Shown: positions 1,875-57,025 of the stretch, one piece after another
How positions within the stretch are numbered: the first letter of the stretch is position 1
Layout of the letters: each line of letters opens with the position of its first letter
From: Hyalella azteca
Lineage: Eukaryota > Arthropoda > Malacostraca > Amphipoda > Hyalellidae
Assembly (NCBI RefSeq): GCF_000764305.2
Contig: NW_025937516.1
Span: 1 to 64,000, forward strand
Reading direction: 5' to 3'
Length of the DNA stretch: 64,000 nt
Program-made: the position numbers and the translations under genes
Notes under the pieces: model-generated
Told to the model about the DNA's origin: nothing
Seen by the model: the letters and a program-made list of their open reading frames with translations, nothing else
Database searches by the model: none

Positions 1875-2252
1875 CTAGCCGAATACTCTGCGCCAGAATC
1901 TTCTCACTTCTTTGCCGATCTTCTCTGCTACCTTTACTATGTCGATTCTCACAGGTTTAAGAGTTGTTGTTGTTTGGCCGGGTATGTTGATTGGGGGACG
2001 AAACTCATTGGGAACTTGGTCGTTTCCATCTTCAATAATAGGAACTAGGCCAATTTTCGTCTTCACTTCGCTTCTGATTCCATTTGTTGGAACTGAAGGA
2101 TCGCCTGAAATTTCTTGACTTGTAGACTCGGCAGATGAATCTTCCTGAGAGTCCGTTAAAGTGAGTTGACCATCTCCGAATTTCAGGGGCTGTGCGAGAA
2201 TCGTATTAGCGACCATTGCAGCAAGTAAGAAGAAGATGATGTTTTTTGCCAT
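1875..2252 (-). CDS. Secreted cationic-tail peptide precursor, type I copy 1
   Basis: A 125-residue single-exon ORF, family not recognised by name. Residues 1-20 form a signal peptide (MAK, a hydrophobic core, then A-M-V) with cleavage expected in LA|QP. Residues 21-80 are acidic and Ser/Thr/Glu-rich. A proline/threonine stretch (about 88-100) precedes a basic amphipathic end, KIGKEVRRFWRRVFG. The final Gly just before the stop could serve as an amide donor. The start is set by homology with the other copies, all beginning MA[KN], and by a TATA box about 100 nt upstream. Compared with copy 2 (33038-33415), the middle differs (residues about 83-104) while both ends are kept. A secreted, processed antimicrobial-like or venom-like peptide is my inference; a salivary or reproductive secreted protein is equally open. 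Confidence 0.75.
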   Translation of the reverse strand: MAKNIIFFLLAAMVANTILAQPLKFGDGQLTLTDSQEDSSAESTSQEISGDPSVPTNGIRSEVKTKIGLVPIIEDGNDQVPNEFRPPINIPGQTTTTLKPVRIDIVKVAEKIGKEVRRFWRRVFG

Positions 2253-2309
2253 CTCAATAATCTGACGAAGAGTTGAAATTGAGGAATGTTCTTGTAGTAA
2301 ACCCTATAA

Positions 2310-2445
2310 GTTTGCTACCGTGATGTTCGGAACAGATCTGCGAGGCCTCTATATAATGTTTCGGCTTATATAGCTAATGTTTCAGCGTATGTAACCATGC
2401 TATGCATTCTAGCGCGCGTTTATTGGGCACTTGACCCTAATCTTG
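2310..2445 (-). promoter_or_regulatory. Type I promoter, copy 1
   Basis: A minus-strand TATA box (TATATAG core, about 2349-2356) lies about 100 nt upstream of the ATG. About 70 nt further upstream lies ATTAGGGTCAAGTGCCC (minus strand of 2425-2441), which resembles AATAGGGTCAAATGTGCC upstream of the type III genes. AGGGTCA is a nuclear-receptor-type half site; no binding has been shown. The same arrangement recurs upstream of the second type I gene. Confidence 0.6.
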
Positions 2446-2459
2446 AATTGTATTCAGAG

Positions 2460-3510
2460 AAATACTCTGAACTGGCTCACTTATTTTCTTGATGATTTTA
2501 CCATCCCCGTTTTGAGTTACGAAGAAATAAATATTAAATTCAGCATGACCTGATCGGCGAATTGATAATTTTCTACTGCAGCAACAAATTGCAATTGCTG
2601 CTCCAGCTAGAACGGGCGTAAAAACACCAGAAAACGAGCGTAAGATATCAAATATATTTTCAAAAAATAAAATAAGATTATAGCAATAATCTTACCGTTA
2701 CATATATCTGAAAAATATAAATGAGGAAGCCTCGAAATAAAGGGATATGGAATAACAGGATTTTCAAATTTCTGCGAGTATAAAAATAATTATCAATCCC
2801 ACATAAAGTTAGTTTTCCGCAGAAATTGTGACATAATTCCCAAAAATTAAAAATCTAAAATCTAATCTTTATTGCGCCATGATTATTTCTGTTATTAGAC
2901 GTGATGAGACATCATTATGAGCCTTAAAAAACTTTTGAATAAAATGGCTGTTGTTTCTACGAAGGAAATTAATTTTTCTCACTGCAATCAGCGTGACATT
3001 ATAATCACAATATTATGGTCTAGTGTCGAATATAAATTTCATAGAAGCTTCAAGTCCCGAAAAATATTGGAGCGTGAAGCATGGAAGGTCACATGCGTTT
3101 CTAATATATTGATAATTCGCTGAAGAAATGTTGGCTTGAACTTTCAAGGTCTAAATAACCTCAAATGACACACCATGTAACTAAAACCTTGATGGTAGGG
3201 ATAAAGCCACAGCATTTAATTGTACCCATACCAATATAGCAGTTTGGCAATACTGTTAACGTGTTGCTCATTATATGCACAATCAAAAAATGTCCAACTT
3301 GAATCCATATTGAGGTGTACGTAGTACTCTTGTAGCACCATTGGGAAAACTTATAATACATCAATAACATATAACCGTAATTTCCATATAAAATTTACCT
3401 TAACCTTCCATAAAATTACCTTCCGTGAATTCTGAATTGAAATCGAAATGAACAAAACTAAAACAACAAACAAATTACAATTTCTCACGACCAGAGTACC
3501 TTGACTTAAA
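2460..3510. repeat. Upstream flank of type I unit, joining block P
   Basis: This is a diverged copy of 33640-34695, also found from 51958 onward. From about 3127 it continues into the start of block P, as at 24605, 34267 and 52367. No conserved ORF is present; the short open frames are not kept between copies. Confidence 0.7.
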
Positions 3511-3530
3511 GGTGAAAAATACTTGTGTCT

Positions 3531-3622: not shown

Positions 3623-3639
3623 GGTGAAAAATACACCGT

Positions 3640-5640: not shown

Positions 5641-6270
5641 AGATAATGCGTATACAGGATTGAAATGATTCTAAACATATATATTGATTTTTTTGCCGAT
5701 ATATTCATCAACCATCACTTGAATAGGAGAACAGAAAACAGGGAAAATTGAGTTTGCAGTTTTTGCCTCAAGTTTTGGACCGTTTTAGGTTTAAAAGCAA
5801 GCTTCTTGCAGTGCTATGGCATTAATTGCAGATGGATCACGCGCTGAAATAATAAGTCAACGCGGTTTTTGGAATTTTGTTAAAGCTGTTTAAAGTCTAC
5901 AGCAGATATTTTTTACTCTTAATTAGATGTCTGTTGGATCATGTTGCACTAGCAAAATTAGGAACCATGATGAGTCTAAAGATATTCGTATCCTATCCAA
6001 AAGACTCCTATTAAATTTCGACAGGCCAATTAAGCAGATACTGAATTTATGGATAGCGATTTAAAATATTACTCCAAAATCACGGAAATTTACTTATGTT
6101 GAACATCAACATCAGGATTTATGGCATGGACCAGAAAAATCCTAGAGACAACCTGCTGAACGAACGATAGTTAGCGGGCGATGGACTGTGGATTCAGAAT
6201 TCGATATTATTGAAGCTGCGATGCTACCACTAAAATAAGCGTTAATCGTATAGCCCGCCATGTTCGTATA
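5640..6270. other. Gene-free AT-rich DNA
   Basis: No open frame of note, no RNA gene and no clear match to the duplicated blocks. Confidence 0.5.
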
Positions 6271-6273
6271 GAG

Positions 6274-6661
6274 TTTCGATATGACTGTGAGTCATATTTG
6301 AAATTATTAGAATTTGAAATTAGTTTTATTAGACTTTCGATATGACTGTAAGTCAAATTTGAAATTATTAGAATTTGAAATTATAGTATTATTAGGCTTT
6401 CGATATGACTGTAAGTCAAAATTGAAATTATTAGAATTTGAAATTAGTATTATTAGACTTTCGATATGACTGTAAGTCAAATTTGAAATTATTAGATTTT
6501 GAAATTATAGTATTATTAGGCTTTCGATATGACTGTAAGCCATATTTGAAATTATTAGTGTTTTAAATTAGTATTATTAGACTTTCGATTTGACTGTAAG
6601 TCAAATTTGAAATTATTAGAATTTGAAATTAGTATTATCAGAGTTTCGATATGACTGTAAG
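6274..6661 (+). repeat. 61/63-bp tandem repeat with alternating unit length
   Basis: Units beginning TTTCGATATGACTG start at 6274, 6335, 6398, 6459, 6522, 6583 and 6644, giving spacings of 61, 63, 61, 63, 61 and 61. The long form carries attatagtattattaggc and the short form attagtattattagac, so the array is partly a 124-bp dimer repeat. It is not coding. Confidence 0.95.
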
Positions 6662-6669
6662 TCTTTTTA

Positions 6670-7640: not shown

Positions 7641-7644
7641 CAGG

Positions 7645-7745
7645 GGCTATATAAGCCAGGTCACCGACATTAGGTCTCATACGAGACACCACAGAGTCAT
7701 TCCAAACATCTCTGTCGCATTTTCAAACATCGTACCATCTTAATG
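7645..7745 (+). promoter_or_regulatory. Type II promoter and 5' UTR
   Basis: TATATAAG at 7648-7655 lies about 95 nt before the chosen ATG, a layout like that of the type I and III genes. Transcription would start about 30 nt downstream, near the tctcatacg stretch at 7676. The GGGTCAA-like element of types I and III is not evident here. Confidence 0.65.
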
Positions 7746-8204
7746 ATGGCAAATAACTTCATCTTTATATTCTTCCTGGCCATGGGATTCCATTTGCTTC
7801 TCGCACTACCAGAGAACTATGGAAACAAAGAAATTACTTTCACTAATGAGGTGAAAATTAAGGCTCCCTCGTTAACCAGTCAAAAAATCAATACAACGAG
7901 TTCTGAAGTTCATTCAACGGAAGATGGAAACGTTACCGACACAACAAGCGTTGTTTCAAGCACTGGAGATGAAAATGAAGTAGACGCCACAACTAGCCCT
8001 TTTCCAGCAAGTGAAAATGGAAACGGAGTTGGAACGACCAGCCTTTTCTCAACAATTCAAGAAACTTCAATGGAACCTTCAACAACGGAAACTTCAACAA
8101 CGGAATCTTCAACAACTACAACGACTCCAACAACTACAACTGCGACTCCGAGACCAAAATGGTATAAACGAGTCTGGAGGAAAGTTAAAAAATGGTTTGG
8201 CTGA
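7746..8204 (+). CDS. Secreted Thr-rich cationic-tail peptide precursor, type II
   Basis: A 152-residue ORF. An ATG three bases earlier (7743) is in frame, but the second ATG gives MANNFIF, matching the MAK starts of types I and III. Residues 1-20 are a signal peptide with cleavage in LA|LP; A12-M13, L19-A20 and P22 fall exactly as in the other types. Residues 45-95 hold three loose repeats of about 16 residues (EDGN/DENE/ENGN followed by TTS). Residues 100-135 are a Thr/Ser-rich, mucin-like linker likely to be O-glycosylated. The end, RPKWYKRVWRKVKKWFG, is strongly basic and aromatic and finishes in Gly. N-glycosylation sequons NTT and NVT are present. It is the only type II copy here. A membrane-active amidated peptide released from a glycosylated precursor is inference; a glycosylated secreted protein of other use is possible. 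Confidence 0.75.
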   Translation: MANNFIFIFFLAMGFHLLLALPENYGNKEITFTNEVKIKAPSLTSQKINTTSSEVHSTEDGNVTDTTSVVSSTGDENEVDATTSPFPASENGNGVGTTSLFSTIQETSMEPSTTETSTTESSTTTTTPTTTTATPRPKWYKRVWRKVKKWFG

Positions 8205-12110: not shown

Positions 12111-12116
12111 TGCTTT

Positions 12117-12562
12117 ACTGCTCACTCTATGAGAGGAACAACGCGCTCTGCTGCTCTCTGTATGAGAGGAACAACGCGCTCTGCTGCTCTCTGTATGAGA
12201 GGAACAACGCGCTCTGCTGCTCTCTGTATGAGAGGAACAACGTGCTCTGCTGCTCTCTGTATGAGAGGAACAACGTGCTCGGCTGCTCTCTTTATGAGAG
12301 GAACAACGTGCTCTGCTGCTCTCTTTATGAGAGGAACAACGTGCTCTGCTGCTCTCTGTACGAGAGGAACATTGTGCTCTGCTGCTCTCTGTACGAGAGG
12401 AACAACGCGCTCTGCTGCTCTCTGTAAAACGTGCTCGGCTGCTCTCTTTATTAGAGGAACAACGTGCTCGGCTGCTCTCTTCATGAGAGGAATAACATGC
12501 TCGGCTGCTCTCTGTATGAGAGGAACGACGTGCTCTGCTGCTTTCTGTATGAGAGGAACAAC
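12117..12562 (+). repeat. 33-bp minisatellite, about 14 units
   Basis: Units with the core gagaggaacaacgcgctctg start every 33 bp (12131, 12164, 12197 up to 12395, then 12452, 12485, 12518, 12551). One unit near 12428 lacks 9 bp. Because 33 is a multiple of three and the unit has no stops, frames stay open on both strands (12033-12620 +, 12122-12484 -). Each unit has CTCTC-5 nt-GAGAG hairpin potential, and several unit differences are C/T changes at CpG. No coding evidence beyond openness. Confidence 0.95.
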
Positions 12563-19523: not shown

Positions 19524-19955
19524 ATGGCAAAATACATCCCAGTCTTCTTCCTTGTGGCGATGATCGTCCACTCGCTTCTGGCGCATCCTCTGAATTTGGA
19601 TGAACTTGTACCCACGGGTACGAACTCTCAGGAAAGTTCGATTATAAGTCAACAAGGTTCAACAGATAACCCGTTGGAATCGGATACCGAAAATGAAAAC
19701 GAAGTTGACCTAAACGACGTCATAATTTCGTTGAATGGAACTGATAATGACGTCACAGGAGCAATTCGTCCCCTACTGCCGATCATAATACAAGGGGCAA
19801 GGAAAATTGGGGGGCCAGTAATACGAGGGGGAAAGAAAATTGTGGAGGCAGCAATCCAAAAATATGTTATAGACGTACTTCTAGGGGGCCCTAAAAAGCC
19901 TGCGACGAAAGTGCAGAGAAAAGTGAAAAAATCCGTCAAGAAACCCGTTGGCTAA
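19524..19955 (+). CDS. Secreted cationic-tail peptide precursor, type III copy 1
   Basis: 143 residues starting at MAKYIPVFF. The open frame continues upstream, but the promoter and the other family starts fix this ATG. Signal peptide 1-20, cleavage in LA|HP. An acidic Ser/Asp/Glu-rich part spans about 24-72 and carries an NGT sequon. Then comes a hydrophobic/basic stretch rich in Ile, Gly and Lys (GARKIGGPVIRGGKK) and the tail KVKKSVKKPVG-stop. The GGKK and final Gly are possible amidation or dibasic processing points. The downstream 3' UTR intron is intact. The body from about residue 75 is unlike that of the other type III copies except 46949-47344, which shares a Lys/Pro-rich end. A secreted host-defence or venom-type peptide is inferred, not shown. 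Confidence 0.78.
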   Translation: MAKYIPVFFLVAMIVHSLLAHPLNLDELVPTGTNSQESSIISQQGSTDNPLESDTENENEVDLNDVIISLNGTDNDVTGAIRPLLPIIIQGARKIGGPVIRGGKKIVEAAIQKYVIDVLLGGPKKPATKVQRKVKKSVKKPVG

Positions 19956-27600: not shown

Positions 27601-28770
27601 GAATTGCACATGATACACGTGGCCTTCATCAAATTTTAATTATTTTTATGAAGAAATTCCCACTGATATAATGTAAGCTGCTCAAATTCACAGAATGAAG
27701 ACACTTGTGATCGCCTATACCATTATTGATCATACAAAGCAACTATAACAATGTGGTGTCGTGCCTGGAAACTAAATTATTATTCATGCTCTCATTTATC
27801 ATTAGGATAATTCGTATAAATGGAGCCAAAAATTTTACATCCTTCGGAACAGAGATTTCATATCTTAATAACTGAGTTTGTCGTTAACTTGAAATGATCC
27901 GTCTTCAAGAGGAAATTTTCGATGAAAGAAAGGAATTTCAGGACATTGAATTCATTTTCATTTCGTAACTACAAGTATCAGTTGAATTTTCCTATATGCC
28001 GGATACCTTTAACCCCGCGTCAGCACAAACCAGATCGGTTTTGGTTGAATTTTGTGGTGTCGTTTATGGTATCATATAGGCGCTTCGTATCATATAGACT
28101 CCACAATGTGGGAAATGCAGAACTTTTATAGATTTTACCAACGTTTAGCGATCCAGTTTATTGCATAGTTTCTTGAAGTAAATTGACTTGGCAAAAAAGT
28201 CTAAAGATTGTAGGCGATTGATGGCAATCTATCTTAATAAAATAATCATATGGTTCCAAATATAATACTGAAACTTTCATAGTTAAATTGTGGATATTTT
28301 AAATGGAATAATAATATTAAAAACTGTTCAGTTGTTTTCTTTCGGCATAAAATAGCAAATTTCGTAGTAACCGGTACGTGTTTAGTCCCGGCTTAGCGTC
28401 AGCGTGGTCTGGCTGGTCAGTGTGAACCTAGTACATTCAGTTCCGTAAATTAATAAAGTAAAATTTTTAGTCCTCCCTGCAATTAAATTAAACCACTAGA
28501 ATTGAATTGAACCACTGTAACTAAATTAAATCACTAGAGTACTAATTTATTAAAATGAGTTGGACCTATACATTTGTAAACGTGCATACGATAAAGCGCA
28601 TATAAATTTCTCCCATGAGAGGACCATCAACATAATGTTAATGGTTGCGTTTATGATGCTAAAATTATAAGCACCCTAATTTTTTACCAACTTAAGTGCA
28701 TTTATGGCACCGTTTCTCCGAAAGGAACAAATGTGCAATATACATGAGTGAGCTGTCACCGTCTCCTAAG
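24605..28770. repeat. Block P, long copy, 5' of the deleted type III gene
   Basis: It is colinear with 52367-56510 over about 4.1 kb with small indels, and partly with 17324-19400, 34267-34695 and 3127-4974. No conserved ORF was found; differing frameshifts between copies argue against genes here. Confidence 0.85.
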
Positions 28771-28771
28771 C

Positions 28772-28925
28772 TATAAAAGCCGCAGCATCGCCAGGACCAC
28801 AAAGAGACATAGATGAACTGGAAGGACTTCGCTGCTAATTGACCCGTGGAGCCGTCAAACATCTGCTTGGAAAGTCAACTAATGAAAAGATTTCGAACGA
28901 AACTTTTTGTTTAAGTTGTAACCGA
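28772..28925 (+). pseudogene. Type III relic: promoter joined to exon 2
   Basis: TATAAAA (28772-28778) and the 5' UTR start up to agagacat are intact. The sequence then jumps to atgaactggaaggacttcgc of exon 2. The rest of the 5' UTR, the whole coding region and the intron are gone. The promoter may still fire but no family peptide can be made. Confidence 0.85.
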
Positions 28926-29511
28926 ATATATTTTTATGCACTGCACATTACATAATGTCCATGTTCTTCGGGCCATCCTATACCATCAAATGAATTTTTC
29001 TCAGCATTATTTTGTTCTAAGTAGAAATAATTTATAAGTGATTATTATGGTCACAATATCCACAGCTTAAATCAATATGGTAGTATAAATGACCATGTAT
29101 TTTAATGGAATGGTATCTTTAGTCTTAAGAAATCAAACGGAAATCCATTTCTCCGATTGACAGGATTACTTTATGACATCGTTATTAATTTTTTCTGATT
29201 GTTTTTCCGATCCGTGAAGACAATTTGATTTTCTTTGATTAGAAGAAGTAGCTAAACTGTCGAATTTCAGTTAATTCGTTTCAGTTGCTCAGTCGCACAT
29301 TAAAATTATTATAGTTTAGTTGTTCAGTATTTAATTCAGTTGTTCAGTCGCACATTAAAATTATTATATGTGACGATAATTGTTTTGTTTTCCTTAAAAT
29401 CAAAGGCAATGACAAGTTTTAGCTCCTGAATATGCATGCATGTGAAATTTCTTTTCTATAAATATATATATGTCTGCGTCCAATTTCTTCCAATTCATGA
29501 AATTCATGAAA
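28926..29511. repeat. Block T, partial
   Basis: It matches 57000-57515, the 3' flank of a type III gene. It stops at the junction near 29512. No gene is seen. Confidence 0.7.
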
Positions 29512-29580
29512 TTCAGCGCACTCATGTATATGACGCATTTGACCCTATTGAAGAAGCGTTGCCCTAAATGCACTTGAGAT
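29512..29580 (-). pseudogene. Orphan upstream promoter element of a lost type III gene
   Basis: cagcgcactcatgtatatga followed by catttgaccctattg equals the region upstream of the minus-strand type III genes (39185-39222, 47475-47510, 59680-59715). The TATA box and gene that should lie to its left are absent; block T of the neighbouring relic abuts directly. Confidence 0.7.
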
Positions 29581-30780
29581 GGTAAAAAAAATTATAGTGC
29601 TTATACTTTTAGTATATTATAAGCAACCATTACCATTATGATGATGGTCTTCACGTAGGAAAAATTTACTTGTGCTCTAACGTATAAACGTTGTGCAAAT
29701 GTATGGGTACTACTCATTTTCAGAAATTAGTACTCTAGTGGTGCGAAAATTTAATTGCAGGGAGGACTAAAAATTTTACCTTATTAATTTACGGAACTGA
29801 ATGTACTAGGTTCTAACTGACCAGTCAGACCACACTGACGCTCAGCCGGGACTAAACACGTACCGGTTACTACGAAATTTGCTATTTTATTCCGAAATGA
29901 AACGTCTGAAAAAATTTTTGATTCTATTATTCCATTTAAATTATCCATAATTCAACTATGAAAGTTTCAGTATTTATTTTTGCAACCAGATAATTATTTC
30001 AACAATCCAACAATCGCTTACAATTATTAGTCTTTTTAGCCAAGTCAATTCACTTCAAGAAACTACTGGGAGCAATAAACTGGATCTCAAACTACTGGTA
30101 AGTTCTGCATTTCCCACATTGTGGAGTCTACATTACACGAAGCGCCTACTAAGGGTGCTTTGTATCAAGGGCATCATATTTATATTCTTCTCATTCCGTT
30201 ATTTGTTCACGTTCCACAATAATCTACAGGAATACTTTCGCGGATAAAGCCTCCGACATCTTCCATAAAAAAAATCTTCCATAACAGAAATGAATACAAC
30301 CGTGTCCGCTTGTTGATGAGCAAACCATCAATGTAGAGACGACTCTTGATATCAAACTTTATAGTTTAACTATAAATCTCTTTATAAGTAGACGGTCACT
30401 TGCCTCAGCCATGTTTGATAAATGAAAATAATCACTATTATTTTATCACTATTTATTATCACTGCACTTCAAGCAAAGCCATCTAAAAAACAGAAAAAAA
30501 ACAGAATAAAAGCAAGCGAAGTGTACCGAAAATGACACCACAAAATTCAACCAACACCGAAGTCTGGTCTGTGCTGGCGCGGAATAAGGTGTCTGGCATC
30601 TCGGAAAAACTCAACTGATAGCATGAGTTATTAAACAAAAATGGATTCAATATCCTGCAATTCCTTTCTTCTATCGAAAATTTCCTCTTGAAAACGGAGC
30701 ATTTCAAGTTAACACAAAACTCGGTTATTGAGATGAGAAATCTCTTCCATTTAAGCTCTAATAGGTTCCTTTTTATTATT
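29581..30780. repeat. Block P, inverted copy
   Basis: It matches 59735-61080 and, more diverged, 39225-40080. It carries no gene. The 74-codon frame near 30483-30707(-) recurs at 60784-61044 but has no protein features. Confidence 0.75.
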
Positions 30781-31140: not shown

Positions 31141-31144
31141 CATC

Positions 31145-31770
31145 GTCCCTATGGAGTGAGACCTCTAGCGTGCGTCTCGTCTGAGGTGGCGGCCGCGAGG
31201 TGTTGGGACGATCTGGGGACTGCGGCATCAGCTCGTCTTCTTACGGAGGACGGGTCTCTGCAAGAGCTGAGGCGAGGACCGGTTGCTGCAAGTTGGTTGT
31301 CCGTCACTAAAGCTCAGGGTGTCGTGGAAATTTGTGGCTCCTGCGGGTTTCAATTTTGGATAACCGTTTCCACTTCACTACTCTTAACCCAAATAATAAA
31401 AACCTCCTGTCTTCCAACTGATCATATGTTTATTAGATACCAATTTATTCATAGCCTCTTATTTTTAAGATGACTATACAACTTTTAGCGCACAGCTGCT
31501 AGGTCCGTGAATTTAAACAGTTCACAACATTTGGACCCTAATATTCAGCGTGCGCCAATTCTCTATTACATAAGTTTGTTTTCTTTTCATTCATAGCAGT
31601 TGACATTTATTTTGACAGGATGGGCGGCACGGAGCTTAGCGCTTCAGTTTCTCTGCGCTATCCTGGCTGGCTTTCGCTGGCCAGGTGAAGCTCTTGCTCC
31701 CGATTTTCTGAGGACTTCTACCGGGCAGCAGCTCGGTCAAATTCATTCTTCGCATGATTATTTTTGTGTT
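31145..31770. other. GC-rich island pair, copy 1
   Basis: Two G+C-rich stretches (31145-31345 and about 31610-31770) are repeated at 62377-62577 and 62842-63002. Frames are open on the plus strand (31156-31473, 31600-31797) without recognisable domains. The first frame's C-terminal part differs between the copies because of single-base changes. A tract ending tttattttgacag before 31619 looks like a splice acceptor. It may be a fragment of an unrelated gene or transposon. Confidence 0.4.
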
Positions 31771-31834
31771 CCCATGAACACAGTTAAGAATGAATAAATA
31801 ATTAACTTTGAGACGTTTCTTTCCATCTTTAATT

Positions 31835-32855
31835 GTTGTTGATTCAATTTTCCTTCCACTGAAAAGGGAGGTCGCGCTAAAGTTTTCTACAATATACTGT
31901 ATCACCAACAGAAAGTCCAAACTTACGCAGGGGGAAAGACCTAAATGCCAGACAATGGGGGCTAAAGAACGCAAAAACTTGTCGATTAACAATATCTAGT
32001 GGGTAAACCCATAATAATTGGTTAGAAAAAGTATACTTTAAAAATTTACAGCGATTCCGAGATCCTTAAACCTGAAGTGTCAAAGGCGTAGCTCTAAATA
32101 TAAAAATATCTCCCGAAAAGAGGGACATCGATTTGTTCAGTGTCAATTAAAATAAACTAACGAAATGAATATATAAATTACTGGTTATTTTTTGATTTGC
32201 CAGTCAAGCAATTTTTTTCTCAAAAACCATCATTAAGTTGGAAAAATAGCAGGACCTACATATAGGTGAAAAAATTCACGGGATTAATTTACCATTTATT
32301 CAAGTTAAAAATAACATTATTTATAGAATGAATTTTTCAGGGAGCGGAAATCAATTTATTAGCTTCTTGCCGCCAACATTATCATTTAACCTATCGGGTT
32401 CTTAGAATTATGGTAAATCAGAGCAAACTGTAAAAAGTGCAAATTAAATTACATAATTGATTTGTAATTATGAATATCGCTATATATAAATGGAGAGCTA
32501 AATTACAGGGCCAAAAATGAAAAATTGACAAGTTTGTCATTTCCAGCAGTTTTGAACACACACTTCTGTACGATACAAAATGTATATATATTATTTGTGT
32601 GTTGCATATTTATGTGTATATATGTACCTACATATTTAAATATAAGTTTAATTAGCCAGCATTCAGAATGAGGTACAATATCAACCACATTGTGTAACTC
32701 TATATTGTATGCTATTTATTCTAACGAGAAACATTAGTAGTAAGCAAGATAGAACTCAAAATTTTCTCTTAAACTTATGAAGTAAGCTTGTCATTGACTG
32801 AAGTACCACTCCGCTGTGCCGGGCGAACTATGAGATCCGAGTCCACATGCAGTCG
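31835..32855. repeat. Type I 3' flank block, copy 2
   Basis: It pairs with 691-1695 and with 63067-64000. Against the latter (offset 31232) I found no difference from about 31800 to 32768. Confidence 0.9.
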
Positions 32856-33006
32856 CTGAAAAATTGTGCAAAAACTTTAAATAATTTTTATGACTAATTA
32901 TTTCATTAAATTTTTGTATATATCTGTGAGTATATAGTCTCAAATCATTTGAACACAAAAACGGGCAATATTTTTGGATTTTCCAGACGATGTTTCAGAT
33001 ACTTAC
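32856..33006 (-). other. 3' UTR intron of type I gene 2
   Basis: Donor CGC|GTAAGTAT at 33006, 31 nt after the stop; acceptor TTTTTCAG at 32856; 151 nt. Exon 2 (CGACTGCATG onward) and an AATAAA around 32715 match copy 1. Confidence 0.65.
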
Positions 33007-33037: not shown

Positions 33038-33415
33038 CTAGCCAAATACTCTGCGCCAGAATCTTCTCACTTCTTTGCCGATCTTCTCTGCCACTTTCAC
33101 TACGGCTTTTATAATTTTTTTAGCAGCGTCCTTTCTGTCTGAAGGCGAGGGGGTTGGGATTATAACATTATTGAAAACTTGGTCCTTGCCATCTTCAATA
33201 ATAGGAACTAGGTCAATTTTTGTCTTCACTTCGCTTCTGATTCCAGTTGGTGGAACTGAAGGATCGCCTGAAATTTCTTGACTTGTAGACTCGGCAGATA
33301 AATCTTCCTGAAAGTCTGTCAAAGTGAGTTGACTATCTCCGAGTTTCAGAGGCTGTGCGAGAATGGTATTAACGACCATTGCGGCAGCAAAGAAGAAGAT
33401 GATGTTTTTTGCCAT
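33038..33415 (-). CDS. Secreted cationic-tail peptide precursor, type I copy 2
   Basis: 125 residues, the same length as copy 1. Signal peptide MAKNIIFFF...LA|QP with a slightly changed core. The acidic, Ser/Glu-rich residues 21-80 are close to copy 1. Residues about 83-104 are replaced by a different stretch ending in a basic DAAKKIIKAVVKVAEK, which lengthens the amphipathic basic end. The final EVRRFWRRVFG is the same as copy 1. Equal length with a different internal stretch suggests gene conversion or balanced indels. Promoter, 3' UTR intron and poly(A) signal are all kept. Its 3' flank is nearly identical to the right end of the window, so a further copy probably lies just outside. Function is inferred as for copy 1. 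Confidence 0.78.
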   Translation of the reverse strand: MAKNIIFFFAAAMVVNTILAQPLKLGDSQLTLTDFQEDLSAESTSQEISGDPSVPPTGIRSEVKTKIDLVPIIEDGKDQVFNNVIIPTPSPSDRKDAAKKIIKAVVKVAEKIGKEVRRFWRRVFG

Positions 33416-38747: not shown

Positions 38748-39056
38748 CTAACCAAAGATTTTCTTGATGAATCTTTTCACTTCAGGTAAAATGTACGGTA
38801 GTAGGGCAACAACTACTCCCGTGGCTCCGTCATTATCATTTCCATCCAACGAAATTATGACGTTATTTGGGTCAACTTCGTCTTCATTTTCGGTATCCGA
38901 TTCCAAAAGGTTATCTGTTGAATCTTGTTGACTTTTAATCGAACTTTCCTGAGCGTTCGTACCCGAGGGTACAAGTTCTTCCAAATTCAGGGGATGCGCC
39001 AGAAGAGAATGGACGATCATCGCTACAACGAAGAAGACTAGGAAGTATTTCGCCAT
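38748..39056 (-). CDS. Secreted cationic-tail peptide precursor, type III copy 2
   Basis: 102 residues, the shortest intact type III copy. Signal peptide MAKYFLVFFVVAMIVHSLLA|HP. The acidic part (about 22-75) is close to the other copies, with extra Asp. After GDNDND-like residues there is only a short hydrophobic stretch (GVVVALLPYILP) and then EVKRFIKKIFG-stop, which matches the shared tail. The start is set by the promoter 110 nt upstream. It is head-to-head with the gene at 41358. It may represent the minimal form: signal, acidic part, tail. Function is inferred. Confidence 0.78.
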   Translation of the reverse strand: MAKYFLVFFVVAMIVHSLLAHPLNLEELVPSGTNAQESSIKSQQDSTDNLLESDTENEDEVDPNNVIISLDGNDNDGATGVVVALLPYILPEVKRFIKKIFG

Positions 39057-41194: not shown

Positions 41195-41357
41195 GAAAGG
41201 ATCAAACGTGCCATACACATGAGTGAGCTGTCACCGTCTCTTGAGCTATAAAAGCCGCAGCATCGCCAGGACCACAAAGAGACATCACAGGTCTACTCCA
41301 GGCATCACGGTCCCTTTGAGAAGATTGCGAATTTTGCTTCCTAGTAACGTCATTGAG
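41195..41357 (+). promoter_or_regulatory. Type III promoter, copy 3
   Basis: TATAAAA at 41247-41253, 111 nt before the ATG. AGGATCAAACGTGCC at about 41199-41213 is the upstream element with a changed core. Confidence 0.7.
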
Positions 41358-41726
41358 ATGGCAAAATACTTCCCAATCTTCTTCGTTGTGGCGATGATCG
41401 TCCATTCGCTTCTGGCGCATCCCCTGAATTTGGATGAACTTGTACCCACGGGTACGGAGGAAAGTTCGATTATAAGTCAACAAGGTTCAACAGATAACTC
41501 TTTGGAATCGGATACCGAAAATGAAGACGAAGTTGACCTAGACGACGTCATAAATTCGTTGAATGGAACTGATAATGACGTCATCAAGGAAGTAATTACC
41601 CTACCGCCGCCCATAATAAAAGAGGTAGAGAAAGCCCTGAAGAAAGTAATTAGAGAAGCTGTTGTAGTGCCTCAAAAGAAAGTGTACCGAGAAGTGAAAA
41701 GATTCTGGAAGAAACTCTTTGGCTAG
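41358..41726 (+). CDS. Secreted cationic-tail peptide precursor, type III copy 3
   Basis: 122 residues. Signal peptide 1-20, LA|HP. The acidic part ends at NGTDNDV. Then comes a long Lys/Glu/Val-rich amphipathic part (about 75-122) containing EVEKALKKVIREAV and finishing EVKRFWKKLFG-stop. That tail is nearly the same as the type I tail EVRRFWRRVFG, linking the two types. The frame is also open upstream through the 5' UTR and TATA box, which is chance. The 3' UTR intron is intact. It diverges from the gene at 38748 and converges on 46949. Function is inferred. Confidence 0.78.
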   Translation: MAKYFPIFFVVAMIVHSLLAHPLNLDELVPTGTEESSIISQQGSTDNSLESDTENEDEVDLDDVINSLNGTDNDVIKEVITLPPPIIKEVEKALKKVIREAVVVPQKKVYREVKRFWKKLFG

Positions 41727-41754: not shown

Positions 41755-41997
41755 GTAAGTTTCTAGGAAATAATTTTAAATATTTAAACAATTTTCCTCT
41801 TAATTGTAAGTTGATGAAATAAATTCAGATTTTTAATTTCAATAACAAATAAGCATTTTCAACTGTACAATCGTCTTATATCTCTCATAAAATAACCTAG
41901 AATTGATAAACGTTTTGATACAAAGAAAAACAGATACAAGAGTATGTTACTTTAATTGAATTCAATACTTATTTCATTTGTGTCTGAATTGTTTCAG
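41755..41997 (+). other. 3' UTR intron of type III copy 3
   Basis: Donor GAG|GTAAGT at 41755, 28 nt after the stop; acceptor TTGTTTCAG ending at 41997; 243 nt. Exon 2 begins TTGCTGATGAACTGAAAGG. Confidence 0.72.
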
Positions 41998-46948: not shown

Positions 46949-47344
46949 TTAGCCAACGGGTTTCTTGACAGGTTTTTTCACTTCTCTCTGCCCTTTCTTC
47001 GGAGGCTTTCGAACTGGTACTTTCTTCCCAGACCCTAGAGCTCTTTCAATTACTCCCCCCACAATTTTAATTCCCTCTCCTATTATGATCGGAAGTAGGG
47101 GACGAACTAATTCCGGTATTATGATGGCGTTATTATCAGCTCCATTCAACGAAATTATGATGTCGTTTAGGTCAACTTCGTTTTCATTTCCGGTATCCGA
47201 TTCCAAAGGGCTATATGTTGAACCTTGTTGACTTATAATCGAACTTTCCTCCGAAGGTACAAGTTCTTCCAAATTCAGGGGATGCGCCAGCAGCGAATGG
47301 ACGATCATCGCCACAACGAAGAAGGTTGGGATGTATTTTGCCAT
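46949..47344 (-). CDS. Secreted cationic-tail peptide precursor, type III copy 4
   Basis: 131 residues. Signal peptide 1-20, LA|HP. The acidic part is about three residues shorter near 32-35 (VPSEESS instead of VPTGTNSQESS). Then comes a hydrophobic Ile/Gly-rich stretch (LLPIIIGEGIKIVGG), a GSGKK that could be a processing site, a Pro/Lys-rich linker, and REVKKPVKKPVG-stop. It is closest to 19524-19955, with which it also shares intron sequence, but in opposite orientation. Tail prolines would break an amphipathic helix, unlike the FW tails of copies 2 and 3. Function is inferred. Confidence 0.78.
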   Translation of the reverse strand: MAKYIPTFFVVAMIVHSLLAHPLNLEELVPSEESSIISQQGSTYSPLESDTGNENEVDLNDIIISLNGADNNAIIIPELVRPLLPIIIGEGIKIVGGVIERALGSGKKVPVRKPPKKGQREVKKPVKKPVG

Positions 47345-47512: not shown

Positions 47513-50060
47513 AGTGTTGCCATAAATGCACTTGAGGAGACTTAAAACGTATCGGTTACTACACAATTTGCTATTTTATTCTGAAAGGAAATAACTGAAC
47601 AATTTTTTGATACCATTATTCCATTCGAAATATCCATTATTTAACTATGAAACTTTCAGTATTTATGTTTGCAACCATATGATTATTCTATTATAATACT
47701 CTGCATCAATCGCTTACAATTTGTAGTCTTTTTAGCCAAGCTAATTTTCTTCATGAAACTATGAAATAAACTGGATTTCTAAACATTGGTATCACGTTGT
47801 ATGATCTATAATGGTATAGGCGATTACAAGTGTCTTCATTTTGTAAATTTGAGCAGCTTACATTACATCAGTAGAAATTTTCTCATAAAAATGGAACAAA
47901 TTCGATGTATCATTTCATATTAGTCCCACGTAACTTGTGCAATTTAACGGATATCTCGCATCAATAAGTATTTTTCACATGAAAATATAACGTAGTCGTA
48001 TTATTACTTTATTTGGGCAGAGTGGGCCATATACCATTTCTAGATGCCACTTCGCACTCAAATTGTGCACTCACGCTGTTCCACGCTTTGCACGCAATAT
48101 TGGCATAGAAAATTTAGATTATGAAATTGAATGCGTCAAGTGCTTCTCTACACAACTTGAATAATTCGCCGAAGAATTGCTAGAACCTTCATAGCTGAAG
48201 ATTAGGTTGACCTTGCCGCCTGGGTCAAAGACACTCGTTTTTTCAGTTTACGGTGCAAATGATATTTAATTTGATGAAGGATGTTGGTAGTGCATTGCTT
48301 ATAGTTTTAAAGAAAATCAGTCAATAGAATGTGTCGCACGGTAAACTATGTATTTTTTACCAATAAGTCAAGGTACTCTGGTTGTGAGAAATTGTAGTTT
48401 TTACTTGTTTGTTCATGTAGTTTTGTTCATTTTGATTTTAATTTATAATTTAAGGAAGGTAATTGCTGTACGGTATAAAGCTTGAGCGGACATTTATGTA
48501 GTGTATTAGGTCATAACCTAAATTATTAAATAGAATCTATGAATATATATATTCATGGACATAAATAATTCTTCAAATGCATTATGATTGATTTTTTAAC
48601 TATTTTCTTAACGAGGAAGAATCCTAAATATTTATTTATATGAACTCGCAGAAAATCATCAAGACTATATCCTACGCTCCAATTGTAAAATAAAACAAAT
48701 AAAAAACTTTTAAAAACCACGTTTTCTTAACGGACAAAAAGAAAAACATTTACTCTTACTAACATTTAAGTTATGTAAAATGTTATGTAATGTTATGTAT
48801 GAGTAAATGTTTTTCTTTTTTGTCCGTTAAGAAAACGTGGTTTTTAATAGTTTTTTTATTTGTTTTATTTCACTATTTTTAGTTTTGTAAAAACCAGAAA
48901 AACGTGGTTTTTGAAAATGTTTTTTTATATTTATTCATTTTCTACTTTTTAGTTTAGCAATTTTAGCAATTCTAATCAATTTCCAGGGTTGGCAAGTCTG
49001 GATGTTCGAGAAAAAACTCGATTCCGAACCGTGAAATTTTAGTTTTCTGTAATTTTTTTCTAACTTTTTTTTCAATTATTATTTCTGATTAATCAAATCT
49101 TGAAGTGTTAGGTAGCATAAGCATGCATGCCAAATTTCAAGATTCTATGATCTTCATAAGTGCTCTAAATTAAGGTTTGAATTTTTGATGACAGACAGAT
49201 AGACGAGAAACGAAGCTAAGAAAAACATGGTAATAAAACAAATAAAAAACTTTTAAAAATCACGTTTTCTTAACGGACAAAAAAGAAAAACATTTACTCC
49301 TACATAACATTTAAGTTATGTAAAATGTTATGTAATGTTATGTAAGAGTAAATGTTTTTCTTTTTTGCCCGTTAAGGAAACGTGGTTTTTAAAAGTTTTT
49401 TATTTGTTTTATTTCACTACTTTTAGTTTTGTAAAAACCAGAAAAACGTGGTTTTTAAACATATTTTTTATATTTATTTATTTTCTACTTTTTAGTTAGC
49501 AATTTTAGCAATTCAAATCAATTTCCAGGGTTGGCAAGTGTAGATGTTCGAGAAAAAACTCAATTCCAAACCGTGAATTTTTAACAATTCGACATTATCA
49601 AATCTTGGTAAATTTTTACTTTCACACTAATAACTAATGCGAAATTATTTATAGAAAATTTATTTTATATAAGCTTTATGTTTCCTTTTTAATGGACACG
49701 TAAAATAATAAAATTACAAATCCGGTTTTAAAGTAAGCTCGTTGCGACAGCTTCGACTCGAGAACCTGCATCCATTGTACCAGTATATTCATGACTTGAA
49801 AACAATTCTTTTTAGGCACGTCATACGGATAATTTTTCGTTTTGAGTAGCCATTTATTTTTTGCTCTCGTTGCACATAAATTTGTTGCTCTCAGATCAAT
49901 ATATCATTTTAAAGCGAAATATTTTTCACCGGAATCAAGATCTGTTAATTTAGGACGCGGTTTAACTCATGCCTTTGAATATCCTTGCTGTTAAGCAGCA
50001 ACGATAAGAATTTATTTAATGAAACTTTGATCCTGGTAAGGTGTAATGCAGTGAGTTCTA
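47513..50060. repeat. Block P, inverted, interrupted by palindromes
   Basis: Reverse of 25600-28770 with losses. It is broken at about 48688-49585 by a ~0.9-kb insert of palindromic repeats. It resumes at about 49590 and ends near ttgatcctggtaag (50027). No gene is seen. Confidence 0.7.
48688..49585. mobile_element. Insert with two large palindromes
   Basis: Palindromes 48688-48870 and 49232-49414 each have ~68-bp arms (aaataaaacaaataaaaaac outward end, gtccgttaagaaaacgtgg inside) around a ~45-bp loop with repeated ttatgtaa motifs. Each is followed by a similar ~150-bp stretch containing caatttccagggttggcaag. The two halves are direct repeats about 544 bp apart. No ORF. Probably a non-autonomous foldback element, inserted twice or tandemly duplicated. 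Confidence 0.8.
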
Positions 50061-51132: not shown

Positions 51133-51504
51133 TTAATTGAAGCCTGAAGGTAACTATAAAAAAATATCTTTAGAAGGTGAAATAAATGTTGACCGTAAAG
51201 AGATAACATCGACCCCTTTCGACGATAAAGGATCTATTTCAACCGAAATTTCTGAAGGAGGCCGAATCTTTATTTTCATTATATATTTTTCATTCTGTTT
51301 TCATCATAAATATATTTTCATCAGTTCTTTTCAGTAAGTATTCGGAATGTTGAAAATATTTGCTGACATGTAACTGTGATTCGTCGAATTAAGTAAAAGA
51401 CGAAATCCAAACTGAATAACATGTTATTAATTAATAATAGGACGATTCCATGGAGACCAGCTTTATCGTCAGCTTAAGACGCCCAGAATACAAGTACGAG
51501 TATG
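51133..51504. other. Unassigned stretch
   Basis: A 66-codon plus frame (51137-51337) has an acidic start and a hydrophobic end, but no start context, promoter or second copy. I do not call it a gene. Confidence 0.4.
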
Positions 51505-52366
51505 ACCAACAAAAAGACCAAACTTACGCAGGGGGACAACCTGAATGCAGACAAAGGGGCTAAGGAACGCAAAAACTTATCGATTAAGAATAATAAGAGG
51601 ATAAAACCCATAATCATTGGTTAAAAATTGTTTAATTTAAAAATGTGCAGTGATTCTAAGATCCTTTAATCTGAAGTATGAAGAGAGTAACTCAAAATAT
51701 GAAAGCAGCTCACAGAGACAGGAACATCGATATGTTCACTGTCTAAGTAAACTAACATGAATAACTACATAACGAAAATATAAATTAGTGGTCATTTTTG
51801 ACTTGTCAGTCAGGCAATTTTCTTCTCACAAACCATCATTAAATAGGAAAAATAGCAGGACTTCAATGAGTGAGAAAATTCACAGGATTAAGATCCTAAT
51901 TTAGAAAATGAATTTTTCAGAGAAGTGGAAATCAATTTGATAGTTCTTGGCGCCAAAAATGAGAAAACCTCAAAATAAAAGGATGTGGAATAACAGGATT
52001 TTCAGATCTTAGCGAGTATAAAAATAATTGTCAATCCCACATAACGTAAAGTTTTTGCAGAAATTGTGATTTAACTCCCAAATATTAATAATCCAAAATC
52101 TAGTCTCTATTGCTCCATGATTATTTCTGTTATTAGACAAAATGAGACATAATTATGAGCATCAAAACAATCTCTTCAAAAAATGGTAGTAGTTTTTATT
52201 AAATAAATTAATTTTTTTTCACTGCGAACAGCGGAACATTATCATCATGAGATTATGTCAAATGTTGCATATACAATTTCATGTAGCTTCGAGTCCCGAA
52301 AAATATTAGAGCGTTAAGCATTAAAGGTCACATGCGTTTCTACAACATTTATAATTCGCTGAAGAA
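51505..52366. pseudogene. Type I unit with the gene deleted
   Basis: 51505-51957 follows the type I 3' flank (compare 31905-32365). At about 51957 it jumps to sequence equal to 33856 onward, upstream of the type I gene. The second exon, intron, coding region and promoter are all missing, about 1.5 kb. Confidence 0.8.
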
Positions 52367-55300
52367 ATGTTGACTTGAACCTTCAAAGTCTAAACAACCT
52401 CAAATCACACACAATGTAACTAAAACCTAGAGGGTGCAGATAAAGCCGCGGCATCTAATAGTACCCATACTAATATAGCAGTTTGGCAATACTGTTAAAG
52501 TGTTGATCATTATATGCACAATATATGCCCAACTTGAATCAATCTTGGGGTGTACGTGGTTCTCTTATGGTACTAATGGGAAAACTTCTACACTTTCAAG
52601 CATATACATCAATGACATATAATCGCAATTTCCCTAACAAATTTACCTTAACATTCTGTAAAATTACCTTCCGTAAATTATGAATTAAATCGAAATGCAC
52701 ATAACTAAAACAACAATGGTAAAAAATACATAGCGCTTTATTGTACGACGCATTCCATTGATTGATTTTCTTCAATAACTAGAAGCTATGCACTAACAAC
52801 ATCTTTCATCGAATTATACATCACTTGCAGCATAAACTAAAAATATTCGAGTGTCGTTGACCCAGGCGGCAAGGTCAACCTAATCTTCAGCTATAAGGAT
52901 CGAGCATTTCTTCGGCGAATTATCCAAGTTGTGTAGAGAAGCACTTGACGCCTCCAATTTAATAATCTAAATTTTCTATGTGAATATTGGATGCAGAGTG
53001 TGGAACAGCTTAAGTGGAGAATTTAAGTGTGAAGTGACATCTAAGAACTCTTGACTCAAATAATGTGATTAATCAAATTTGTTTTATTTTTAGACGAAAA
53101 GACCCATTGAAATAATGTACGCGTGAATTGGTATGTGGCCCACTCAGCCCAAATAAAGTGATAATACGACTTCGCTGCATTTTCTTGTGAAAAACTTATG
53201 GATATAATGTACTCATTAAATTGCATAAGTCACGCGTGACCTGAATGAAATGATACATCAAATTTGTTATTTTTATAATTATAGAATTATATAATTATAT
53301 CTTACCAGGATCACACTTTCGTTAAATTAATTTTTGTCGCTGCTGCTTAATGGTAAGGATATTCCGTGGCATGACTTAAACCATTTGGAAACCATTTGAA
53401 AATGATAAAATAATCGGAAAACAACACATTTAAGTCAATGAGAGCAAAAAAAATCAATTGCTTCATACAACGTGAAACTGTCTGAATGAATGCTTACAAA
53501 ATTTTGTCGAATTTGTCTCAATTCATGAATACACTGGTATAGTGGATGCAGGTTCTCAAGTCGAAGCTTTCAAAACGAGCTCATTTTAAGAGGAGCATGT
53601 ACGTCAAAAATCGATTATATTGACTTTTCTAGTTTTTAGGCTCATTTTAAAGGTCCAAGAACTGCGTACTCAAAGAGCCTAATGCCATATGTCTGTGCGT
53701 TCATTTGTGCGTTCACGACAGCCGCCGAAGTGCAAGTAAAACCTATACCTTCAATGATCACTATGAATTTCAGTTTTTGCTCTCCTGAAAACTTAGAATT
53801 TTCATCTTGAAAATCTATCTTCTCTTATGATTTGCAAGCTACAGCATTGAAAGATACACCATCTGATTTGTAACGACCATTTTTAGCGATCTTTGGGTCA
53901 CTTTCTGATTTCATCTTTGATTGAATTATATATTGGAGAAATGAGGGGGCTTGCTAAAATTGAAAAAAAATCCCCTAAAAAATGGGAAAAGTGATTGGAT
54001 GATTGCTAGATGTGGACTTTACGAAAAATCGAATGTTTCCCTCGATGTTGCAGCACGTTAGTTGAATGAGGCGACACATTTTTACAGTAACCCTTTTTTT
54101 TGCCGCTCTAATTAAGCGAATTTCACGTTTTCTTTCATTTTTCCGAAATTTTTTACACGAACATAAAAGTCTTAAATTTTTATTTTATATATGCGTAACA
54201 AGTTTCAAAATGATAAATGAACATTTTTTTTTGCGTTCATGTTGCCCTCTTAACCGGATTTGGAATTTTATTATTTTCCGTGTCCAAAAGAAAAGAACAT
54301 AAAACTTTTACGAAATTAATTTTCTTATGAAGAATTTCGCGTTAGTTTGTACGTGTGAAAATAAGAATTTACCAGGATGTAATGCGTCGAATTGTATATT
54401 TTCATCGTCGCAAGGACAATCCAACTCTGCCTTCATGATCGCACAGAGTCGTGTGGTCATCAATAGTATTTAATTAAGACCACTCATTATTGCATTGAAC
54501 AGACTGCCTTCATTAACAATTAACATACGCGCTGGTTAGAACTTAAATTCGACCCTCCTTAGAACTCTATCCCTTGAATTTTATTACTTTATAATTGGAG
54601 CGTAAGATATAGTCTTGATGCTTTTCTACGAGTATAAATAAACATATATTGGGATTCCGACTCGTTGTTAAGGTTAAAAAATCTATTAATAAAGCATTTG
54701 AAGAAATCATTTACATCGATTCATATATTCAACTGAATAATTCAGTACATGACCTAACACACTACATACCTTCGTTCAAGCTTTATACCGTATAACAATT
54801 TACCTTCCGTAAATTCTAAGTAAAAATTGAAATGAAGTTAATGAACATAACTAAAACAACAAACAAATTACAACTATAAATTCTCACAACCAAAATGCCT
54901 TGATTTAATTGTAAAAAATACATAGTGGTCTACTGTACGACGCATCCTTCTGATTGATTTTCTTCAATAACTAGAAGCTATGCACTACCAACATCTTTCA
55001 TCAAATTATACATCATTTGCAGCATAAACTAAAAATATTCTAGTGTCTTTGACCCAGGCGGCAAGGTCAACCTAATCTTCAGCTATGAAGGTTCAAGCAT
55101 TTCTCCGGCGAATTATCCAAGTTGTGTAGAGAAACACGTGGCGCCTCCAATTTAATAATCTAAAGTTTCTATGAGAATATAGCGCGCAAAGCGTGCAACA
55201 GCATAAGTGCACAATTTGAGTGCGAAGTGGCATCTCGAAATGGTATATGGCCCACTCGGCTCAAATAAAGTAATAATAAGACTTCTTTATATTTTCATGC

Positions 55301-56455
55301 GAAAAAAAGACTTATTCATGTATTCGTTGAATTGCACATGATACACGTGGCCTATATTGATGTATTCGTTGAATTGCACAAGATACGCGTGGCCTTCATC
55401 AAATTTGTATTATTTTTATGAAGAAATTCCTACTGATATAATGTAAGCTGCCCAAATTCACAGAATGAAGACACTTTTGATCGCCTATCCCATTATTGAT
55501 CATACAACGCAACAATAACATTGTGGTATCGTGCCTGGAAACTAGGAAACTAAATTATTATTCATGCTCTCATTTCTCATAAAGATAATTCTTATAAATG
55601 GAGCAAAAAATTTTACATTCTTCGGAAGAGAGATTTCATATCTTAATAGCTGAGTTTGTTGTTAACTTGAAATGATCCGTCTTCAAGAGGAAATTTTCCA
55701 TGAAAGAAAGAAATTTCAGGACGTTGAATTCATTTTCATTTAGTAACTCATGCAATCAGTTGAATTTTCCTATATGCCGGATACCTTTAACCCCGCGTCA
55801 GCACAAACCAGATCGGTTTTGGTGGAATTTTGTGGTGTCATTTATGGTATCATACAGGCGCTTCGTATCATATAGACTCCACAATGTGGGAAATGCAGAA
55901 CTCTTATAGATTTTACCAACGTTTAGAGATCCAGTTTATTGTATAGTTTCTTGAAGTAAATTGACTTGGCAAAAAAGTCTAAAAATTGTAGGCGATTGAT
56001 GGCAATGTATTGTAATAAAATAATCATATGGTTCCAAATATAATACTGAAACTTTCATAGTTAAATTGTGAATATTTTAAAATGAATAATAATATTAAAA
56101 ACAGTTCAGTTGTTTTCTTTCGGCATAAAATAGCAAATTTCGTAGTAATCGGTACGTGTTTAGTCCCGGCTCAGCGTCAGCGTGGTCTGGCTGGTCAGTT
56201 TGAACCTAGTACATTCAGTTACGTAGTTGAGTAAGGTAAAATTTTGAGTCCTCCCTGCAATTAAATTTTCGCACCACTAGAGTACTAATTTCTGAAAATG
56301 AGTTGGACATATACATTTGCACAACGTTTATACGTTAGAGCACAAGTAAATTTTTCTTATTAGAAGACCAACATCATAATGGTAATGGTTGCTTTTAAGA
56401 TACTAAAAGTATAAGCGCCCTAATTTTTTACCATCTTGAGTGCATTTATGGCACC
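52367..56455. repeat. Block P, long copy 2
   Basis: Colinear with 24605-28735. A short local duplication of a tattcgttgaattgcaca stretch lies at 55320-55390. No gene is seen. Confidence 0.85.
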
Positions 56456-56459
56456 GTTT

Positions 56460-56626
56460 CTCCGAAAGGATCAAATGTGCAATATACATGAGTGAGCTGT
56501 CACCGTCTCTTAAGCTATAAAAGCCGCAGCATCGCCAGGACCACAAAGAGACGTCACAGGTCTACTCCAGGCGTCAGGGTCCCTTTGAGAGGATTGCGAA
56601 TTTTGCTTCCTAGTAACGTCATTGAG
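56460..56626 (+). promoter_or_regulatory. Type III promoter, copy 5
   Basis: TATAAAA at 56516-56522, 111 nt before the ATG. AGGATCAAATGTGC at about 56467-56480 is the upstream element. Confidence 0.7.
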
Positions 56627-57025
56627 ATGGCAAAATACATCCCAATCTTCTTCGTTGTGGCGATGATCGTCCATTCGCTTCTGGCGCATCCCCTGAATTT
56701 GGAAGAACTTGTACCCACGGGTACGAACGCTCAGGAAAGTTCGATTATAAGTCAACAAGGTTCACCAGATAACGATTTGGAATCGGATACCGAAAATGAA
56801 GACGAAGTTGACCTAGACGACGTCATAAATTCGTTGAAAGGAACTGATAATGACGTCATCACGGGAGTAATTACTGCCGCCATAATCAAGGAGATAATAC
56901 CAGAGACATTGACCCGTGGAGCCGTCAAACATCTGCTTGGAAAGTCAACTAATGAAAAGATTTCGAACAAAACTTTATGTTTAAGTTGTAACCGAATATA
57001 TTTTTACGCACTGCACAATGCATAA
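56627..57025 (+). CDS. Type III copy 5 with tail replaced by exon 2 sequence
   Basis: 132 residues. Signal peptide 1-20, LA|HP, and acidic part as in the other copies. After about residue 90 (IIKEIIPETL) a deletion joins the reading frame to what is the non-coding second exon elsewhere. Frame continues as TRGAVKHLLGKSTNEK and then a Cys-containing hydrophobic end. The usual cationic tail, stop codon, donor and intron are gone. The new tail is basic and amphipathic for a dozen residues but does not end in Gly. It is either a pseudogene kept open by chance or a new variant. Promoter and 5' UTR are intact. Confidence 0.6.
   Translation: MAKYIPIFFVVAMIVHSLLAHPLNLEELVPTGTNAQESSIISQQGSPDNDLESDTENEDEVDLDDVINSLKGTDNDVITGVITAAIIKEIIPETLTRGAVKHLLGKSTNEKISNKTLCLSCNRIYFYALHNA

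Follow-up and report, generated by a model that had tools for sequence, protein, structure and literature searches.

Related predicted peptide precursors with a variable segment ahead of a cationic, glycine-ending tail in a Hyalella azteca gene cluster

What is made by a cluster of short, related open reading frames (ORFs) whose products begin alike, mostly end alike and differ strongly in between? The question is raised by the first 64,000 bases of contig NW_025937516.1 from the amphipod Hyalella azteca, called here the window, which contains 53 N at three places, one run being of 51. Eight related ORFs of three types were confirmed in it at the positions given in the original prediction: type I comprises g1 and g2, type II is g3, and type III comprises g4 to g8. 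Judged from their sequences, these genes would on balance encode related secreted precursors, which likely release cationic, C-terminally amidated, membrane-active peptides built around a variable segment.

The two type I precursors, both of 125 amino acids, lie at 1875..2252 (g1) and 33038..33415 (g2) on the minus strand and have the same tail, EVRRFWRRVFG. Type II (g3, 7746..8204, plus strand) has a Ser/Thr/Pro-rich middle and the tail RVWRKVKKWFG; its ORF starts at 7743 and counts 153 amino acids in full, or 152 from the second Met, which is the one that aligns. The intact type III precursors are g4 (19524..19955, plus; 143 amino acids), with the Lys/Pro tail KVKKSVKKPVG; g5 (38748..39056, minus; 102), with EVKRFIKKIFG; g6 (41358..41726, plus; 122), with EVKRFWKKLFG; and g7 (46949..47344, minus; 131), with EVKKPVKKPVG. 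The type III copy g8 (56627..57025, plus; 132) has lost its tail. Duplicate units occur in both orientations within the cluster.

That these ORFs form one family is best seen at their two ends. Alignment found A12-M13, L19-A20 and P22 invariant in all eight, bearing out the common start that had been claimed for them. The claimed tail pattern, [EKR]-V-x-[KR]-x-x-[KR]-[KR]-x-[FV]-G, was scanned over the whole window at the ends of six-frame stop-to-stop ORFs of at least 11 amino acids, and it occurs at 7 of 3863 such ends, all seven being these genes. The middles had been called unrelated, which holds for the segment after about residue 76-80 and fails for residues 21-76, an acidic part conserved within types; besides, S45, Q46 and G76 (g1 numbering) are invariant in all eight proteins. 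The family also exceeds the earlier list. Searches with tblastn and with profiles recovered a ninth, truncated type III copy of 55 codons (g9, 59388..59552, minus strand), whose family homology ends at 59395, and three remnants without a coding part were found as well. No further signal-bearing copy exists in the window according to profile searches of six-frame ORFs of at least 25 amino acids and of the signal DNA, which return the same nine.

The seven tail-bearing genes fit the plan of linear cationic amidated precursors. Residues 1-20 make a signal-like hydrophobic start ending in LA (called by eye and from the N-terminal helices of two AlphaFold2 models, of g2 and g4), residues 21-76 have a net charge of -5 to -16 and the remainder one of +1 to +14, none of the seven has any Cys, and in 7/7 a Gly stands immediately before the stop. 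The helical moment of the 14 residues preceding the final Gly was matched by at most 14 of 2000 shuffles in each gene; with 10 residues, the same test gave 13-110 of 2000. The strongest amphipathic stretch of 18 residues in the C-part (the variable segment plus the tail) was reached by 0-10 of 1000 shuffles in the six genes other than g4; it includes part or all of the tail in g1-g3, g5 and g7, and lies within the variable segment, not the tail, in g4 and g6. AlphaFold2, with an input of seven sequences, models g2 as a single helix (91-124) over the variable segment and tail, with a predicted local distance difference test score (pLDDT) by block of 67-78 from residue 91 onward; the pro-part is disordered in both models. 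The original interpretation, a diversified set of amidated membrane-active peptides, is partly supported: the sequences bear out diversified precursors that start with a signal-like stretch, continue with an acidic pro-part and close with an amphipathic, cationic end and a Gly, whereas amidation and membrane activity are inferred. The tails of g4 and g7 are Lys/Pro-rich and not of the Trp/Phe type.

How the segment between the constant parts varies can be followed most sharply in type I. Codons 81-106 (1935..2012 in g1 and 33098..33175 in g2, both on the minus strand) differ at 42 of 78 bases between the two genes; the remaining coding sequence (CDS) differs at only 22 of 297 (P = 1.6e-18), and about 400 bases on the 3' side of the segment are 97-99% alike. 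The nonsynonymous and synonymous rates (dN and dS) are 1.12 and 0.58 in the segment, 0.09 and 0.17 in the signal, 0.06 and 0.13 in the pro-part, and 0 and 0.30 in the tail, where three silent changes and no amino-acid change are found. Two noncoding places in the type I duplication are also low in local identity, but these are gapped (up to 16 and 31-32 per 100 columns), whereas the alignment of the coding segment has zero gaps. The idea that the two middles are one DNA read in different frames was ruled out, since they align without gaps and stops interrupt both of the alternative forward frames. No other place in the window resembles either segment, the profile of each matching itself only.

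In type III, the sequences on the two sides of the variable segment tell different stories. The grouping of g4 with g7 against g5 with g6 is backed by 28/28 informative sites in the tail and the 400 bases after the stop, by 0/7 in the 170 bases before the ATG and by 2/15 in the next 310 bases upstream, a conflict with P = 1.5e-7 when the 3' side is compared with the 170 bases alone and 4.9e-12 when the two 5' stretches are combined. Therefore, the two sides have different histories, and the copies have recombined around the variable segment. The change of history falls somewhere between the ATG and the tail, where that segment lies; with 1, 2 and 2 informative sites, the first 76 codons hardly narrow this down. 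A chimeric assembly could imitate such a mosaic, and collapse is unlikely given the divergence among these four copies, which is 4-10% on the 5' side and 6-23% on the 3' side.

The constant part extends beyond the coding sequence, and here the question of when the genes would be expressed comes in. Types I and III have the core promoter, the 5' untranslated region (UTR) and the signal DNA in common, with splice signals directly after the stop; type II has the signal and the TATA element in common with them. This element starts 100-122 bases before the ATG in 9/9 copies, and reads GCTATATAAGCC in g1, g2 and g3, GCTATAAAAGCC in g4, g5, g6 and g8, and TCTATAAAAGCC in g7 and g9; the TATA box of g6, TATAAAA, lies at 41247..41253 on the plus strand and is present in all six type III copies keeping the region adjacent to the ATG. 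The 5' UTRs contain blocks in common across copies. Both type I promoters are matched by a profile of the six type III promoters, at E 1.3e-6 and 1e-4; conversely, a type I profile matches each of the six type III promoters, at E 2.9e-6 to 0.0018. Further upstream, some 30-65 bases ahead of the TATA element, a block can be seen by eye which reads TCAAGTG..CAATAAAC in type I and TCAAATG..CCATACAC in most type III copies; CAATAAAC is, also by eye, present upstream of type II. The TCAAGTG/TCAAATG block could be a candidate tissue-specific control element.

A cationic amphipathic C-part with a terminal Gly would also be expected of inducible systemic antimicrobial peptides of the humoral response, cecropin-like and under Toll/Imd control. 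We regard this alternative as unlikely. The 600 bases upstream of the nine copies hold no strict kB site by either of two definitions (0.2 expected each), no R1 site (0.8 expected), one loose kB site (2.0 expected) and nine GATA sites (18.1 expected), and no antimicrobial family is found among the Pfam matches up to E = 1. The motifs are insect consensus forms, which may not apply here, and with expected counts so low the kB result has little power and shows only that there is no enrichment. Thus, the absence of kB sites only slightly lowers the likelihood of a Toll/Imd-induced peptide, and points weakly away from a systemic immune response and towards steady expression in some gland or an epithelium, whether venom, salivary, reproductive or gut.

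Behind the stop, the splice-like signals of types I and III are read as a predicted 3' UTR intron of 149-283 bases. In type I it would span 149 bases in g1 (1695..1843, minus strand; CGC/GTAAGT ... TTTCAG/CGACTG, the slash marking the boundary) and 151 bases in g2 (32856..33006, minus strand), with the same signals. In type III it would span 243 bases in g6 (41755..41997, plus strand; GAG/GTAAGT ... TTTCAG/TTGCTG), 281 and 283 bases in g4 and g7, with signals as in g6, and 237 bases in g5, with the donor GGG/GTAAGT. No such signals were noticed by eye after the type II stop.

Several observations weigh against reading the cluster as a set of peptide precursors of one family. Type II is the least secure member: its promoter is matched weakly (E 0.095 by the type III profile and 0.036 by the type I profile), and its link to the family rests on the signal and the TATA element. 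Its tail DNA is identical to the other six tails at 14-18 of 36 positions, where random 36-mers reach 17 at the 99% level; because this is close to chance, common descent of the type II tail is not established, though the protein pattern is alike. At the protein level, the best 18-residue stretch of g4 was reached by 36 of 1000 shuffles, the AlphaFold2 models have low confidence (mean pLDDT 54.6 for g2 and 52.3 for g4), and that of g4 has only a weak C-part helix, at 105-119. Furthermore, no dibasic site common to the precursors was found between pro-part and C-part. Together with the disorder of the pro-part in both models, the lack of a common dibasic site would suit a product that is the whole secreted protein, acidic, disordered or, in type II, mucin-like, with a basic tail binding glycans, nucleic acid or a secreted partner. 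The type II protein would suit it too, since after the signal it is 42% Ser/Thr/Pro and has two N-glycosylation sequons. Simple charge binding, however, needs neither a Gly before the stop in 7/7 genes nor an amphipathic tail, and we give this alternative little credence.

The remaining points concern the health of the copies and the selection acting on them. With g8, g9 and the three remnants broken, many copies are dead. The frame of g8 passes, from about 56908, out of the variable segment into sequence that lies after the stop in its sisters (the predicted 3' UTR exon), and beyond 59395 the g9 copy gives way to sequence adjoining a gag-like ORF. One remnant (28713..29504, plus strand) consists of a type III promoter and 5' UTR that run, at about 28810/28812, straight into the beginning of the predicted 3' UTR exon, with neither coding part nor intron; a second (29514..30428, minus strand) is a type III upstream region alone, cut at 29514, before the TATA box; and in a third (51500..52716, minus strand) the 3' and 5' flanks of a type I gene are fused at 51956/51957, the gene being gone. 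As to selection, the silent sites of the type I segment are also more diverged than those elsewhere (about 8/19 against 10/67; P = 0.02). Positive selection alone is thereby ruled out as the maker of this segment, and the silent divergence suggests that, besides selection, exchange has replaced the segment. Among type III copies, dN exceeds dS in 7/10 pairs for the pro-part (g4-g8) and in 3/6 pairs for the tail (g4-g7), so that purifying selection is not uniform. Finally, one antisense frame of the variable part is stop-free in 5/6 genes tested.

Could the cluster, then, be a decaying, largely non-functional array of duplicates, with old copies drifting neutrally and ORFs surviving by chance? 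The broken copies and the frequent excess of dN over dS in the type III pro-part are what such decay would leave, but the intact genes behave otherwise, and we consider it very improbable. The 193 variable codons of g2 and g4-g7 are stop-free, with a chance of about 7e-7, and frames +1 and +2 contain stops in each, although, in view of the open antisense frame, the chance figure overstates this evidence. Genes g1-g7 showed no frameshift, and the CDS lengths of g4-g7 differ by multiples of three in 6/6 pairs, their intron and 3' UTR indels including many that are not multiples of three. The original prediction had pointed to dN/dS near 1 across signal and tail, with frequent frameshifts in other individuals, as a sign against it. 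The outcome is mixed: signal dN is below dS in 9/10 type III pairs (g4-g8) and the type I tail has only silent changes, against which stand the type III pro-part and tail pairs given above. In the type III C-part, dN is 0.41-0.74 and dS 0.44-0.75, with dN above dS in 3/6 pairs (g4-g7). These type III pairs are mutually dependent, and alignment of the C-part is uncertain; the end of g8, being non-homologous to its sisters, was excluded from the C-part and tail counts.

If the cluster does encode precursors of membrane-active peptides, signal peptidase would cut after Ala20, and the acidic pro-part would keep the cationic C-part quiet until some protease removes it. The final Gly would be converted to an amide, and the C-part, a continuous low-confidence predicted helix in g2, would insert into membranes; a single gland or epithelium would perhaps be the place of expression. 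The peptide set would be renewed quickly as copies are duplicated, deleted and recombined with one another around the variable segment. A more specific version, which we put forward only tentatively, is that of an undescribed cassette family, in which promoter, signal, acidic pro-part and amidated cationic tail stay constant while recombination between copies in inverted or direct orientation exchanges the hypervariable segments, the mature peptide joining a constant membrane-binding tail to a variable helix.

Families with a constant signal and promoter and a changing mature peptide are already known in frogs and mussels. To our knowledge, the moving part is seldom visible this sharply in DNA: here, a 78-base block has changed by more than half between copies that are otherwise 97-99% alike over the next 400 bases or so. 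Since, in addition, the histories of four neighbouring copies conflict between the two sides of the coding part, exchange can be tested directly against point mutation, and, if the peptides are active, the cluster would offer a natural set in which one constant tail is combined with different variable segments.

Some further features of the window were recorded around these genes. The type III upstream regions at 28713-28810 (plus) and 29514-29556 (minus), both without a coding part, face each other about 700 bases apart. Beside the truncated end of g9 lies the gag-like ORF (named by eye; 58656-58985 and 59125-59430), which has three relatives of 60-77% identity in ENA and JGI sources and no Pfam match. 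Self-comparison of the window (E limit 1e-10; matches below 150 bases, self-matches and the mirror half excluded; 142 rows kept) found 61978-64000 to be 98.5% identical to 30750-32768, which adjoins g2 on its 3' side; therefore, a further copy of type I may lie beyond the window. It is within this near-identical repeat that the contig seems to break. Tandem arrays are present at 6269-6663 (61-base unit, 6.4 copies) and at 12111-12562 (33-base unit, about 14 copies, with long open frames on both strands), and within 48681-49583 a repeat of about 200-350 bases occurs several times, in direct as well as inverted orientation. Rfam gave three microRNA matches in the window, all far below their gathering scores, one of them at 48718-48840. 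Ten other ORFs of the window had nothing above cut-off in Pfam.

Is the family already known under another name? The collections searched are mostly microbial, viral or metagenomic, or hold solved or curated families, with few animal sequences; in the sequence, profile and structure collections among them no relative was found, in keeping with the earlier remark that the family was not recognised, though a lack of relatives among arthropods or molluscs does not follow from this. Pfam-A, which includes models for cecropins and frog skin peptides, gave for the eight precursors only unrelated matches up to E = 1, all below cut-off, and NCBIfam gave for the seven precursors searched a best E of 0.0085, far below cut-off. 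Among the 89 candidates of a protein search with g6 there was no match at E up to 10, and a search with the eight-sequence alignment had 2416, none retained; by sequence, the PDB returned two matches only (E 1.6 and 9.7). One pattern found 49 stretches in GTDB contigs and g6 found 8 in IMG/VR, none confirmed in either case, and phage records had no match to codons 1-81 of g8. No paper was found containing any of 13 short peptide strings from the family, a search that sequences in figures or supplements would escape.

The plan of the precursors recalls the linear cationic peptides of arthropods. Cecropins, ceratotoxins, stomoxyn and the cytolytic peptides of spiders have a signal, often an acidic pro-part, an amphipathic cationic helix and often a terminal Gly, and the linear cytolytic peptides of spiders have an Arg-ending processing motif between pro-part and mature peptide. 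Unlike them, the precursors described here have no Pfam or PDB-sequence match and no common basic processing site at the boundary (the spider-type motif was checked by eye in the alignment only, and no dibasic site is common there). We know of no constant tail behind a variable segment as a feature of the linear cationic arthropod peptides, nor of a cationic tail common to all pipid frog skin peptides.

The pipid skin peptides are encoded in a cluster of paralogous precursors in both orientations, with some coding sequences incomplete, and six of the cleaved peptides are C-terminally amidated (PMC3731216). The likeness of this single cluster to the present locus extends to conserved motifs in the promoter and to a signal under purifying selection. 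The pipid genes are described there with three to five exons, known cleavage sites and an origin from a cholecystokinin gene, unlike the cluster here. The myticalins of Mytilus (PMC5577615, PMC12294457) are multigene, lineage-restricted, Cys-free linear cationic peptides with pseudogenes, most members of subfamilies A and B having amidation signals. Like the present family, they combine a conserved signal, a hypervariable centre, a conserved C-terminal region and pseudogenes. However, what is conserved at the C-terminal end of myticalins is an anionic extension that follows a dibasic site, whereas here the acidic part precedes the variable segment and the C-terminal end is cationic and Gly-ending in seven genes. 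Each of the two complete myticalin genes is divided into three exons, the first intron lying immediately ahead of the ATG; the layout here, read from DNA, places the TATA element of nine copies 100-122 bases ahead of the ATG, and in g1, g2 and g4-g7 the stop is followed by splice signals, where the predicted intron would lie. As far as its predicted products allow the comparison, the cluster works like the defence-peptide clusters of frogs and mussels, and differs from both by the cationic tail kept behind the variable segment.

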